Origin: a virus
Reading direction: 5' to 3' (one strand)
DNA: 30,416 bases
IMG/VR virus record: IMGVR_UViG_3300025000_000323
Span: 1 to 30,416 of that record
The position numbers and the translations under genes were made by a program. The notes below the pieces were generated by a model. The model was not told the origin of the DNA. It ran no database searches and saw only the letters and a program-made list of their open reading frames with translations. The stretch's first letter is position 1; every line of letters starts with the position of its first letter. Below, piece after piece: positions 10,725 to 30,416 of this stretch.

Positions 10725-10934
10725 TTATTCAGGGAATCTAATCCCCCGATTCGTCCGCATCAGCATATCAAGCGCTTTAAACTTACGAGTTGTCTCGTAC
10801 TCCTTGTACGCGGCGAGGTATTCATCGCACCATACCCCTATACCTTTTGCGCAGTTTCCGCAATATTGCCTGACAGGTACGATAGGGGAATAGTGTTTAC
10901 ATTGGGGTTTATCCATTTCACCCACGGTAATCAT
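10725..10934 (-). CDS. Small zinc-ribbon-like protein upstream of terS
   Basis: A 69-residue protein. ATG 10934 has AAGG five bases before the codon; a second ATG (MDKPQ, at 10916) would give 63 residues. The frame is open further upstream, but that would run through the terminator and tRNA-like RNA, so it is not used. The core 'PQCKHYSPIVPVRQYCGNCAKGIGVWCDEY' has five Cys and one His arranged as a small zinc ribbon, followed by a basic helix 'YKEYETTRKFKALDMLMRTN'. Similar tiny proteins occur beside terminase genes in clostridial phages. The function is unknown. It is the first gene of the packaging block, just after two terminators. Confidence 0.6.
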   Translation of the reverse strand: MITVGEMDKPQCKHYSPIVPVRQYCGNCAKGIGVWCDEYLAAYKEYETTRKFKALDMLMRTNRGIRFPE

Positions 10935-10951: not shown

Positions 10952-10983
10952 AAAAAAGCGAACGCCCCAATTTAGGAGCGCTC
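10952..10983 (-). terminator. Rho-independent terminator upstream of the packaging block
   Basis: On the coding strand GAGCGCTCC and GGGGCGTTC form a 9 bp stem (two G-T pairs) with loop TAAATT, then GC and six T. It lies only 18 bases before the start of the small zinc protein, so the packaging operon needs either antitermination or its own promoter. No convincing vegetative promoter is seen between this hairpin and the gene. Confidence 0.75.
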
Positions 10984-11003
10984 CAAGTAGAGGAGGAGGG
11001 AAT

Positions 11004-11048
11004 ATGACACCGAGCGCGGATTTCTCCGCACCCATCTGTTTGGCATAG
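11004..11048 (+). CDS. Possible 14-codon ORF on the opposite strand
   Basis: A plus-strand ATG follows AGGAGGAGGG by three to eight bases and opens a 14-residue frame, MTPSADFSAPICLA, closed by TAG. It lies between the two minus-strand terminators, in a stretch with no other gene. The ribosome site is as strong as any in the window, but no plus-strand promoter is recognised and no other plus-strand gene exists. The purine run may be chance. It is listed only because of the site. Confidence 0.15.
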   Translation: MTPSADFSAPICLA

Positions 11049-11049
11049 G

Positions 11050-11079
11050 AAAAAGACACCTCCGAGTTGGAAGTGTCTT
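11050..11079 (-). terminator. Rho-independent terminator of the tRNA-like RNA unit
   Basis: An 11 bp stem on the coding strand, AAGACACTTCC with GGAGGTGTCTT (one T-G pair), a 5 base loop AACTC, and a run of five T. It begins six bases after the 3' end of the second tRNA-like module. This is the strongest intrinsic terminator in the window, and it marks the end of the RNA transcription unit that starts near 11376. Confidence 0.85.
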
Positions 11080-11084
11080 GAGTT

Positions 11085-11174
11085 TGTTGTGGGCAGGATT
11101 TGAACCTGCGACATAGGGCCTTTTTGTGACTGACAACAGTCAACCCGTAGCTCTAACCACTGAGCTACCACATG
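11085..11174 (-). tRNA. tRNA-like RNA B with abnormal anticodon arm
   Basis: About 90 nt. The D arm is canonical (GCTC / GAGC around AGTGGTTA, preceded by TA at positions 8-9) and the T arm is canonical (GCAGG / CCTGC around TTCAAAT). The acceptor stem pairs at five of seven positions (TGTGG with CCACA); the outer two pairs are C-C and A-A mismatches, and no CCA is encoded. Where a 17 nt anticodon arm should be there are about 31 nt: a TA-GGG / CCC-TA stem with a bulged C, enclosing a second hairpin (GACTG TTGT CAGTC) and an A-rich run. No normal 7 nt anticodon loop is seen. Either a degraded tRNA or a tRNA-shaped RNA with another job. Confidence 0.6.
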
Positions 11175-11189
11175 TAATTTGTTTATGAT

Positions 11190-11340
11190 TGCAAGGGTAT
11201 GGATTTACACCATACATGAACAACTCAATAAGTGCCGATATTTTGCAAGCTTGCAATGCTTTGGCTGTTTTAGGACGTTTTCTTGTCCAAACAGTTAACT
11301 TGTCTTATTGATTAGCGTCTACATATTCCGCCACCTTGCT
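11190..11340 (-). ncRNA. tRNA(Leu)-like RNA A with ~60 nt extra in the anticodon arm
   Basis: About 151 nt. The ends pair as an acceptor stem (GCAAGG with CCTTGC). After TG at positions 8-9 comes GCGGAATATGTAGACGC, a leucine-type D arm, and near the 3' end a T arm (GTATGG TGTAAAT CCATAC). Between them TCAATAAG pairs with CTTATTGA as a long anticodon-side helix. Inside this helix are two further hairpins: CTGTTT-GGAC with GTCC-(TA)-AAACAG, and TTGCA AGCT TGCAA, the latter flanked by GCC and GGC. No CCA is encoded. A normal tRNA(Leu) is about 85 nt, so this is a tRNA scaffold with a branched insertion, too short for a group I intron or a whole tmRNA. Confidence 0.6.
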
Positions 11341-11342
11341 AT

Positions 11343-11377
11343 TTAAGAGGCAACGCCGTTTTGGGCATGCCTCTTAA
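11343..11377 (-). other. 5' hairpin of the RNA transcription unit
   Basis: A 10 bp perfect inverted repeat (TTAAGAGGCA / TGCCTCTTAA) with a 15 base loop, in which GCC and GGC can pair again. It starts at the predicted transcription start, about seven bases after the -10 box, and ends two bases before tRNA-like module A. There is no T run after it, so it is not a terminator. It would cap the 5' end of the RNA, or could be an operator. Confidence 0.6.
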
Positions 11378-11382
11378 GAGGT

Positions 11383-11412
11383 ATTATATCATGACTAGTC
11401 AAGCTTATTCAA
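11383..11412 (-). promoter_or_regulatory. Strong extended -10 vegetative promoter for the tRNA-like RNAs
   Basis: On the minus strand: -35 TTGAAT (11412-11407), an 18 bp spacer, then TGATATAAT, which is a perfect TATAAT (11388-11383) with an extended TGn. Transcription would start near 11376, at the 5' hairpin. It lies just past the stop of the 134-residue gene and points at the two tRNA-like modules. It is the best housekeeping promoter I could find in the window. Confidence 0.72.
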
Positions 11413-18260: not shown

Positions 18261-19328
18261 CTATGCCACCCTAACCGGTAACACAATGTGAATATATCCC
18301 TCATCCCTAATCAAGACCGGAGAGTACATCCCGTTAAACTCCATCTCTACCGTTTCCCCAACTGAGTCCAAGGCATCTATGATAAATCGAGCATTAACGG
18401 CAATATCAATCGTTTCTCCGCTGTGTTCTACGTCGATACGCTCGTTAATCTTCCCCTTTTGGCTTGCTCCGGCTATGGAAATACTATCTGATCCCTTCAG
18501 CTTAATAACCTTTGATTCTCCATCGGTGAAGAGTGTAGATCGATCAATTGAACCTTTAAATTCACTGTTCGATACCTTTATGGCTGATAAGTACTCCTTT
18601 GGAATAACCTGTTTGTAATTCGGAAATTGACCCTCGATCGTACGAACAAAAATCTTAGTGGGACCAGATTCGAGAATTAACTGTGAACCATGCGCCACTT
18701 TCAGTTTCATGTCACCGCTAAATTTCAAAGCCTCCACAAGCGCCTTTGCTGGCACAATACCTTTCCACTCATCCGCCGAATCAATGTCGCTCGTTACGAT
18801 AGCTAGTCGATGTGTATCAGTGGCAACAAACTCTATCTTTCCATCCTTGATCGCTATCAAGATCCCTGTAAAAATCGGTCGATTGGCTTCAAGGGAGACC
18901 GCCTTAATCGTTTTAGTTACACCTTTTTTAAGTATTTCAGCAGGGATGTTTATCTCACCGTCTGATATTTCAGGAAGTAGCGGAAACTCATCCGTTGGCA
19001 AGGTTTGTAGCTCAATAAACGAACCCTTGTACTTAATAGTCATTGTTCCATCTTCGACACTAATACTGACTTGAGAATTTGGAAGTTTTTTAATTATGTC
19101 CGTGAATATTTTGGCCGGAACAACGCACGAACCCTCTTCCTCTGTGTCGATAATCTGAACCGTGTGTTGTATGCCAATCTCTAAGTCTGTTGTTGAAAAT
19201 TGAAGGTATCCATTTTCTAAATTTATAAGAACACCTTGAAAGATGGGATTAGATGATTTCGATGATACAGCCTTTTGCACGACCGATATCGCATCGTTTA
19301 AGATCGATTTGTGGCATGAAAATCTCAT
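18261..19328 (-). CDS. dnaN: DNA polymerase III beta subunit (sliding clamp)
   Basis: A 355-residue protein from ATG 19328 behind GGAGGAG; a longer frame (377) has no ribosome site. Host clamps are about 366 residues. Family marks are 'AVSSKSSNPIFQGVLINLEN', 'LEIGIQHTV', 'ADDTHRL'-type 'VATDTHRLAI', 'FPNYKQVIP', and the last strand 'YSPVLIRDEGYIHIVLPVRVA' (host: '..M.P.RL'). Three domains are present. A phage-encoded clamp replaces or competes with the host clamp and suggests a phage-guided replisome. The closest host form could not be checked. Upstream of it is a leader inverted repeat. Confidence 0.9.
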   Translation of the reverse strand: MRFSCHKSILNDAISVVQKAVSSKSSNPIFQGVLINLENGYLQFSTTDLEIGIQHTVQIIDTEEEGSCVVPAKIFTDIIKKLPNSQVSISVEDGTMTIKYKGSFIELQTLPTDEFPLLPEISDGEINIPAEILKKGVTKTIKAVSLEANRPIFTGILIAIKDGKIEFVATDTHRLAIVTSDIDSADEWKGIVPAKALVEALKFSGDMKLKVAHGSQLILESGPTKIFVRTIEGQFPNYKQVIPKEYLSAIKVSNSEFKGSIDRSTLFTDGESKVIKLKGSDSISIAGASQKGKINERIDVEHSGETIDIAVNARFIIDALDSVGETVEMEFNGMYSPVLIRDEGYIHIVLPVRVA

Positions 19329-19349
19329 TTTGCTCCTCCGATCTAAGTG

Positions 19350-19396
19350 ATTTGAGGGGCCCTGTTGGTATGTAGTTGGCCCCAATGCTGTCAAAT
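19350..19396 (-). promoter_or_regulatory. Inverted repeat and TTGACA box upstream of dnaN
   Basis: In the 77 bp gap before dnaN, ATTTGA pairs with TCAAAT and GGGGCC with GGCCCC, giving a two-part hairpin (7 nt asymmetric gap on one side). On the minus strand a perfect -35 box TTGACA (19394-19389) lies in the upstream arm, but only a poor -10 follows. It may be an operator or an RNA hairpin controlling clamp synthesis. The start site is not assigned. Confidence 0.4.
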
Positions 19397-26906: not shown

Positions 26907-27548
26907 TTACACAGCTTTCAGTCCCCGATACATTGTCCTTTCCCCTAAATCCATATTGAGTCCATACTGCCTTGCTGATTCGAGCAAATATCTCTCCATT
27001 CGTCCGATACTAACCTGCGATATACCCATGGCGTCTCCCACCTCTTGCTGGGATAAACCCATCTCCCTAAGTTTGTATACCCTCCGCAATCTTGGTCCAA
27101 TCTGACTAAGGAAATCCCTTACAACCACCTGTTCTCCATAATCGTAATGTCGTAGCTCGATAACATCTCCAAGTGTTCTGTTTTCCCCTTCTGTCAACGG
27201 ACAATCTAAGCTATCGACATCTAGAAAATTACTGCTCTCTCTGCCTCTCCGGATCGTGCGTCCATAGTCTCGTATGTGCCTAAGAATTTCTCCGCGAATC
27301 TTCTGCACCGCGTAGGTGGAAAACTTAATTGGATCTCCATCCGTTCCGGTGAAACCCGTTGGATTATAGCCTTTGTACGCTTTGACTAGTCCTATATACG
27401 CGATACTCAAATAGTCGTCTTTATCAAATTTCAGGCTCTCGTCTTTTCCTGCCTTCTTGATGAATTCCCAAGCTACGTATTGAGCTAGATTCATGTTTGC
27501 TTGGATGTATTCATCCGGTGTGCCTGGTAGATATGGATTGGTTTGCAT
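26907..27548 (-). CDS. Phage-encoded sigma-70 family sigma factor
   Basis: A 213-residue protein, ATG 27548 six bases after GGAGG. Region 2 is 'EYIQANMNLAQYVAWEFIKKAG', then 'DDYLSIAYIGLVKAYKGYNPTG', with 'IKFSTYAVQKIRGEILRHIRDYG'. Region 3 is short. Region 4 'VYKLREMGLSQQEVGDAMGISQVSIGRMERYLLES' is a clear helix-turn-helix. It resembles sporulation-type alternative sigma factors (SigF/G/B/K group) of Firmicutes. It would direct host RNA polymerase to phage middle or late promoters. None of those promoters is recognised here, so its consensus is unknown. Confidence 0.87.
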   Translation of the reverse strand: MQTNPYLPGTPDEYIQANMNLAQYVAWEFIKKAGKDESLKFDKDDYLSIAYIGLVKAYKGYNPTGFTGTDGDPIKFSTYAVQKIRGEILRHIRDYGRTIRRGRESSNFLDVDSLDCPLTEGENRTLGDVIELRHYDYGEQVVVRDFLSQIGPRLRRVYKLREMGLSQQEVGDAMGISQVSIGRMERYLLESARQYGLNMDLGERTMYRGLKAV

Positions 27549-29851: not shown

Positions 29852-30416
29852 CTACTCTTCATCTGCCTCATCTTCGCTTTCATCCAATTCAATGGCCTCG
29901 CTGAGATCAATTTGTTCTTTTGCGAGTTGAATAGCCAGCTTGTATGTTCGTTCATGTTTTGTTCCGGCGTGGGTTTCCTGAACAGCTTTCTCGAAATCAT
30001 CAACGCTACCAAAGAAACATCCGCAAACGACATGGATTTGATTAGTTTTGATCCGGAAAAAAGTCGTAAATCCGTTCCGTGATCCGATAGCTCCGAGTTG
30101 AAAAAGGTGGGTAACTTTAGAGACCCAAGCATTGCCAGAGACCCAAGCATTGCCATAGACCCAAGCATTGCCAGAGACCCAAGCATTGCCATAGACCCGA
30201 GCATTGCCAGAGACCCAAGCATTGCCAGAGACCCAAGCATCGCCATAGACCCGAGCATTGCCAGAGACCCGAGCATTGCCAGAGACCCGAGCATTGCCAG
30301 AGACCCAAGCATTGCCAGAGACCCAAGCATCGCCATAGACCCGAGCATTGCCAGAGACCCAAGCATCGCCATAGACCCGAGCATTGCCAGAGACCCAAGC
30401 ATCGCCATAGACCCGA
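29852..30416 (-). CDS. Hexapeptide-repeat protein with conserved phage C-terminal domain (N-terminus cut by window)
   Basis: The frame is open to the window edge, with no start inside, so the 5' end is missing. The first ~100 visible residues are a repeat with unit R/W-V-Y/S-G-D/N-A, for example RVYGDAWVSGNARVYGDAW, a left-handed beta-helix pattern. They are followed by 'VTHLFQLGAIGSRNGFTTFFRIK', 'HVVCGCFFGSVDDFEKAVQETHAGTKHERTYKLAI' and an acidic end ESEDEADEE. This C-terminal block is common in Firmicutes phage proteins of unknown function. Two other minus frames across the repeat are also open, but they lose this domain and are not the gene. Confidence 0.82.
   Translation of the reverse strand, partial: RVYGDAWVSGNARVYGDAWVSGNARVYGDAWVSGNAWVSGNARVSGNARVSGNARVYGDAWVSGNAWVSGNARVYGNAWVSGNAWVYGNAWVSGNAWVSKVTHLFQLGAIGSRNGFTTFFRIKTNQIHVVCGCFFGSVDDFEKAVQETHAGTKHERTYKLAIQLAKEQIDLSEAIELDESEDEADEE
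30117..30416. repeat. 18 bp tandem repeat array
   Basis: About sixteen 18 bp units based on CCAAGCATTGCCAGAGAC, with variants such as CCGAGCATCGCCATAGAC, are visible and continue past the window edge. They code for hexapeptide turns of the beta-helix. Near-identical units point to recent expansion or homogenisation. Confidence 0.92.

Follow-up and report, generated by a model that had tools for sequence, protein, structure and literature searches.

The closest described relative of the RNAs reported here is class-II tRNA-Leu, whose variable stem ends 2 nt before the T-arm. What we call shell RNAs share with it the acceptor stem, D-arm, T-arm and A15-U48 pair, usually G18G19 and A73, and a terminal helix that ends 2 nt before the T-arm in the manner of a variable stem; unlike it, they lack an anticodon arm, and the variable region has given way to about 25-190 nt of unrelated structures. 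In tmRNA (RF00023) a tRNA-like end likewise has its anticodon stem exchanged for other structure, but shell RNAs have a D-stem, show no recognisable tag frame and are much shorter. The YrlA bacterial Y RNAs, tRNA mimics bound by Rsr, are also noncoding RNAs that resemble tRNA; shell RNAs differ in occurring mostly in phages and in being far more variable, and the only Rfam family that their elements match at cut-off is tRNA, the shell family itself being absent from Rfam. Plant-virus tRNA-like structures are another case of viral tRNA mimicry, and are chargeable, but they form the 3' ends of RNA-virus genomes, whereas shell RNAs are predicted to be separate transcripts of DNA phages. Ordinary phage tRNA genes often share clusters with shell RNAs and have the same arrangement of promoter, terminator and small transcript, but carry a readable anticodon; plain ARAGORN calls a tRNA in only 5 of 174 distinct shell elements. 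Experiments on E. coli tRNA-Leu are pertinent to all that follows: lacking both anticodon and variable arms it is still leucylated in vitro, provided that A73 and the D/T-loop contacts are kept, and A15-U48, G18G19 and A20a matter for leucylation while the variable arm does not (PMC9976931).

The stretch of DNA analysed here, the window, is a virus record of 30,416 nt (30.4 kb) from a tailed phage, with TerL, TerS and portal detected by Pfam. It also encodes a DNA polymerase processivity factor and a sigma-factor-like protein (18261-19394 and 26907-27548, by PHROGs), and a tandem-repeat protein (WVSGNARVYGDA repeats) at 29852-30416 that continues past the contig end. The first-pass annotation had described, ahead of the terminase genes, a promoter, a 5' hairpin, two tRNA-shaped modules and two terminators, and all of these are present where it placed them, on the minus strand (Table 1). 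Promoter-like sites in the region number 1 against 2.1 expected, so that the count alone is no excess over chance. Among close relatives (contigs with 92-100% identical TerL), the promoter is kept in L007, while in L006 and L002 its spot is taken by another good promoter ahead of a different leader hairpin, an argument for genuine transcription units. In the window ARAGORN detects no tRNA, and none at normal stringency even when introns up to 250 nt are allowed. The open frame 11171-10725 runs across module 2, but its conservation in relatives is known only from the ATG at 10934 onward, so that the RNA unit contains no evident protein gene, in agreement with the earlier reading. The conserved part, a small ORF, matched no PHROG family.

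Table 1. Features of the RNA unit and its surroundings in the window.
Feature	Position	Strand	Basis
Extended -10 promoter, TTGAAT-18-tgaTATAAT	11383..11412	-	Identical in L007; TTGACA-17-TATCAT instead in L006
5' leader hairpin at likely transcript start	11344..11376	-	Fold -19.3 kcal/mol, z -6.9
Module 1, tRNA-Leu-shell RNA	11189..11340	-	Model R1 66.3 bits, E 1.5e-16
Acceptor stem 5' strand, AGCAAGG	11334..11340	-	Pairs with 11196-11190; A1.A72 unpaired
D-arm, GCG-GAATATGTAGA-CGC	11315..11331	-	Covariation; window alignment to R1
Inner domain replacing anticodon and variable arms	11216..11314	-	Fold; L006 comparison
T-arm, GTATGG-TGTAAAT-CCATAC (6-bp stem, UGYAAAU loop)	11197..11215	-	Covariation; compensatory change vs L006
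Module 2, second tRNA-shaped module	11085..11174	-	Rfam RF00005 39.7 bits; fold z -3.8
Intrinsic terminator 1, 11 bp and T run	11050..11079	-	Hairpin 11079-11053, z -5.5
Intrinsic terminator 2	10952..10983	-	Hairpin 10983-10960, z -3.9
Small Cys-containing ORF between RNA unit and terS	10725..10934	-	Conserved in relatives

Module 1 retains the acceptor stem, D-arm, T-arm and 15-48 pair of a tRNA-Leu, as judged by covariation and by alignment of the window, while some 99 nt of other structure replace the anticodon/variable region. Its fold, computed as a 169-nt stretch, has a z of -2.9. The inner domain contains one helix at 11311-11304/11231-11224, another at 11293-11285/11276-11266, a hairpin at 11256-11243, and a CAT at its end. 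The window and L006 differ at 11 positions; in the predicted helices 3 pairs have changed at both positions, 1 has turned into a wobble and 0 are broken, and the 11293-11266 helix by itself shows two compensatory pair changes and none broken. In both sequences the main inner helix stops 8-9 nt before the T-stem, and the window lacks a feature that is common in the family, though not defining for it, namely a terminal helix whose end is 2 nt from the T-arm. There is no 5-bp anticodon stem with a 7-nt loop such as a decoding tRNA has. Lacking an anticodon, the RNA is unable to decode; module 1 is not a decoding tRNA.

A D-arm motif, GCAAGGTGGCGGAAN(0,14)AGACGCTAA, searched in 2.9 million viral contigs, yields 23 loci, and 23 of 23 are abnormal shells in which acceptor stem, D-arm and T-arm surround an unrelated middle; no normal tRNA-Leu is among them. 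The same motif gives 1 match in 84,980 bacterial and archaeal genomes. A wider D-arm motif finds at least 120 stretches, with about 130 of 137 elements abnormal among the matches listed, and in Bacteroidota genomes it matches 2 of 395, one of them a genome already known. Motif matches thus show a specific signature that is frequent among viral contigs and almost missing from cellular genomes. A T-arm motif of the window's type, TCATGTANGGTGNAAATCCNTACCC, occurs at 119 or more loci; 88 of 119 among the matches listed have the exact D-arm together with a paired acceptor, and in most others the D-arm is a close variant, the D-stem being compensated in several (GTG/CAC, GAG/CTC, CTG/CAG, ATG/CAT). 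The collection amounts to at least 205 elements, at least 174 of them distinct, with 115 inner-domain groups (about 115 unrelated inner domains), values that, like the uniformity of the shell, are lower bounds partly shaped by the motifs that seeded the searches. The D-arm search did not impose the T-arm or the acceptor 3' strand, and the T-arm search imposed neither D-arm nor acceptor. In blast searches of INPHARED, whole single elements were mostly without a match, whereas queries made of the shell only, its middle masked with N, gave matches.

In an alignment of 53 shells, 98.6% of cells in the acceptor, D and T helices are paired, and there are 180 double-sided changes against 43.5 in shuffled alignments, with 0 of 500 shuffles as high. 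The covariation score is 0.567, against 0.131 when shuffled and 0.03-0.10 in slid controls. A covariance model, R1, was trained on 26 members including the element of Bacillus phage SPP1 but neither the window nor L006 and L007; besides recognising the window (Table 1) it gives 55 bits to the Enterococcus phage EFDG1 element, 51 to that of LP65 and 78 to SPP1, a training member, against 28-39 bits for ordinary phage tRNA-Leu. The earlier proposal of a single RNA unit of roughly 325 nt, built of tRNA-shaped modules and serving some purpose besides decoding, is supported, and covariation among homologues is strong. In 88 of the 115 inner-domain families the 3' strand of a helix stops exactly 2 nt short of the T-arm; this position has a mean score of 12.7, compared with 7.8 in dinucleotide shuffles, and for helices ending 0-5 nt before the T-arm the combined p across families is about 3e-22. 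Because the terminal helix ends where a class-II variable stem does, most members resemble a tRNA-Leu that has lost its anticodon arm and had its variable arm rebuilt.

With high confidence we assign module 1 to a family of RNAs that is specific to phages, does not decode and descends from tRNA-Leu. Acceptor stem, D-arm, T-arm and A15-U48 are present in every member, usually along with the D-loop GG; the anticodon arm has been lost, and a structured domain that is hypervariable and exchangeable takes its place. No description of such a family was found among open-access PMC papers, and membership of a very large, unrecognised phage RNA family is beyond what the first-pass annotation had in view.

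The family has two branches, whose names follow the hosts of named carriers and one Sphingobacterium genome rather than the host of the window phage. The Bacteroidota-type branch has U48 in 97%, the D-loop GG in 82% and A73 in 82%, with T-loops that are mostly UUCGAAU or close variants. In the Firmicutes-type branch the T-arm has a 6-bp stem and a UGCAAAU loop, with G55 in all instead of U55; positions 47-48 are AU in 98 of 105, GG is usual, and position 73 is A in 63% and U in 29%. Positions 18/56 in that branch are GG/C in 88 and AG/U in 4, against 4 mixed, and the apparent correlation between G18-C56 and A18-U56 involves too few independent events for a claim. By sequence, the elements of a LeuRS substrate (A73, A15-U48, G18G19, D/T-loop contacts) are mostly present, with exceptions. 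The window itself has U18, G19, U56 and the A1.A72 mismatch, and these, together with the frequency of A73 and the G55 of the Firmicutes-type branch, suggest that charging may not be general.

Inner domains behave as modules. One inner-domain family, X54, is present in about 30 contigs and almost always within a tRNA-Leu shell. In family B the arrangement ACUGUAAUG-hairpin-CACGUUAAA...GCGCAGAAGUGCG is kept, and its hairpins covary across shells that differ in acceptor and D-stem; this domain is seen once outside a tRNA shell, in MT835839 (L160, about 1480-1590), where a 14-bp stem, AAGTAGTTTATCAG/CTGATAAACTACTT, closes it. EFDG1 and L350 both have the inner domain of L007, in which a helix covaries and a GUCGG/CCGAC complement is conserved. 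Domains are also swapped among close relatives, as between L006 and L007, and among the Schiekvirus phages EFDG1, 113 and EFP01, which have three different domains at one locus within the same shell (acceptor GTCACTG). The shell of phiFL2A (L353 1497-1550), between an ArpU-type activator and terS, apparently has almost no inner domain, so an inner domain may not always be needed. A general pseudoknot of the 5' linker with the inner loop (Fisher p 0.015 over 86 families, and suggestive by eye in several members) is weakly supported and is not claimed. Some members (L199, L220, L225, L253, L283, L234 and L198) have a second long insert within the D-loop, and at L025 12523-12644 the middle of a tRNA shell that is not of the Leu type includes a second T-arm-like hairpin (GACGGTTCGAGTCCGTT).

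Among close relatives the locus shows itself to be an exchangeable slot. L006 has a homologue of module 1 there, and L007 has the window's shell ends (AGCAAGGTGGCGGAA..GACGC and ..CCTTACTCTTGCAA) around a wholly different inner domain of about 150 nt. L002 and L004, whose TerL is 100% identical to that of the window, have only a leader hairpin and T run, the absence of the RNA being read directly; L003, also 100% identical in TerL, gives no blastn match to the RNA unit. An RNA missing from relatives with identical TerL is not required for packaging, and the terminase-linked or cos/pac role that had been among the options offered for this unit is not supported. The expectation that relatives would not carry ordinary tRNAs here holds for module 1, where the shell RNA is kept, and fails for module 2, whose place in L006 and L007 is taken by an ordinary tRNA-Ile(TAT).

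Module 2 is itself irregular, with a hairpin inserted in the anticodon arm and a weak, degenerate acceptor with two mismatches. R1 does not recognise it (12.4 bits, E 0.16), and neither L006 nor L007 has a homologue of it at this locus. We propose that it is a second, unrelated non-canonical tRNA on the transcript of module 1. In SPP1 a second tRNA-like hairpin (ACGGAC..CGGG-TTCAATT-CCCG..GTCCGT) directly follows the shell RNA, and tandem units may therefore be a wider habit.

Named phages carry the shell RNA in varied settings, and their records usually leave it unannotated. In SPP1 it lies between genes 9 and 11 of the head operon (X89721 3423-3532); the SPP1 genome revision does not mention a tRNA (PMC6316719). 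Other carriers are the Lactobacillus phages phiJL-1, 8014-B2 and LP65, Latilactobacillus TMW 1.1397 P1 and L. paracasei JNU_P10; the Listeria phages LP-101, B054 and B025; an SPbeta/phi3T hybrid; Leuconostoc Ln-9 and phiLM33_01; Weissella PWc; and Enterococcus EFDG1 with its relatives, and phiFL2A. Cultured phages in this set include SPP1, LP65, phiJL-1, Ln-9, LP-101, B054, EFDG1 and phiFL2A. The element stands among tRNA genes in EFDG1, LP65 and L025 and among head genes in SPP1, and some records have two or more copies.

We favour a model in which the shell serves as a scaffold. The RNA would be transcribed from its own promoter and matured by host tRNA machinery (RNase P, 3' processing and CCA addition), and would be stable because it is tRNA-like. 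The shell would then dock on a host factor that handles tRNA, most likely leucyl-tRNA synthetase, which requires neither the anticodon nor the variable arm. The inner domain would be the effector or decoy part, varying between phages because its target, a system of host regulation or defence, varies. Membership of the tRNA-Leu-shell family and the scaffold idea, taken jointly, are in our judgment rather probable. The narrower reading of function, with a shell bound or charged by LeuRS and a swappable effector or decoy domain, is tentative and somewhat unlikely when taken on its own. It is possible, if short of probable, that phages of Firmicutes, Bacteroidota and others share a platform of tRNA-Leu-shelled RNA effectors, host-processed and perhaps leucylated, whose exchangeable domains act in host takeover or anti-defence; such a platform, if true, would be the RNA counterpart of the small hypervariable anti-defence proteins of phages.

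The shell RNA might instead be a decoy for defences that target or sense tRNA, soaking up a nuclease or sensor, with the missing anticodon making it uncleavable or non-decoding. The anticodon loop, on which most known toxins against tRNA act, is exactly what shell RNAs lack, and no target was found. A decoy would fit an accessory RNA that is rapidly gained, lost and swapped, is largely phage-specific, is hypervariable as in an arms race, and is located among tRNA genes in three of the records named above. A published tRNA-cleaving defence also exists in Septu, which is reported to cleave the variable loop of tRNA-Tyr (PMC13096335). We consider this explanation unlikely.

Less likely again is a leucine-charged carrier or LeuRS titrator, for which leucylation is the main activity and the inner domain mostly filler that blocks decoding. 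A15-U48, G18G19, A20a and A73 are largely kept, in vitro charging tolerates the loss of both the anticodon arm and the variable arm of tRNA-Leu (PMC9976931), and phiFL2A has a shell nearly without cargo, but filler would hardly be as structured and conserved as the inner domains are, and in the Firmicutes-type branch the U73 of 29% and the universal G55 fit charging poorly. That the RNA is a cis-acting leader or attenuator of the late operon is improbable. It precedes terS in the window, and several temperate or cos phages have it after a regulator, of ArpU type or another, with HNH/terS on its other side; the window unit, however, has its own promoter and two terminators, and elsewhere the RNA is found in tRNA clusters or inside the head operon, in some records more than once.

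A role in packaging, or as a cos/pac element serving the adjacent terminase, is very improbable: the RNA adjoins terS in the window and lies near genome ends in Ln-9, phiJL-1 and LP-101, but it is not near the terminase in EFDG1 and Weissella PWc and among head genes in SPP1, and the natural deletions described above already mostly refute such a role. That the elements are tRNA pseudogenes in decay, or tRNA genes whose introns are removed, can be set aside with similar assurance, since, for all the clear tRNA-Leu ancestry, compensatory changes and inner domains more conserved than the D-loop are not products of decay, the labels that ARAGORN with introns allowed gives to 69 of 174 elements scatter over 17 different identities and look like chance, inserts down to about 25 nt are too short for self-splicing introns, and Rfam gives no intron match in the four records searched (the window, L007, L018 and L350).

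Several specific candidates were considered and rejected. For a group I or other intron there is no Rfam match at E up to 5 in the window, L007, L018 or L350, and the window's insert, at only 99 nt, compares with about 200 nt or more for a group I intron in tRNA-Leu with its P3-P7 core. A tmRNA scores 12.4 bits in Rfam against a cut-off of 47, and ARAGORN -m reports none. A conserved short D-arm ORF (GTGGCGGAA..TAA) fails because variation in D-loop length breaks the frame. Rfam matches to ncr982, NmsRb, GP20-b and SpF41 are below cut-off and are read as chance.

If the assignment to a shell family is right, a whole class of structured RNA stands unannotated in some of the best-studied phages, SPP1 included, overlooked because tRNA finders reject shell RNAs or call them pseudogenes. 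It would also mean that the tRNA body has been separated from decoding on a large natural scale, and that about 115 natural RNA domains are available on one scaffold, some of them in genetically tractable phages suited to functional tests.

Some of the carriers have further RNAs or reading frames near the element. Between its genes 9 and 11 SPP1 has just one sense ORF longer than 45 codons; this ORF, of 55 codons (L325 2529-2696), runs over part of the shell RNA (2596-2705). It probably corresponds to what has been annotated as gene 10, with a product called unrelated to known proteins, and gene 10 may not be a protein gene. EFDG1 has an unannotated tmRNA gene (L323 2145-2495, Rfam 140.6 bits) directly upstream of the shell RNA, and SsrA is annotated in some of its relatives. 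In Listeria phages LP-101 (L320 1103-1528) and B025 (L327 752-1325) rli62 lies upstream of the shell RNA, together with a sub-threshold match to rliG, and mcrA RNA lies downstream; in LP-101 this makes a dense RNA region ahead of HNH/terS. A cluster in Tenacibaculum phage pT24 (L157 1700-2760), annotated as tRNA-Undet and tRNA-Sup, may hold other non-canonical tRNA-shaped RNAs.
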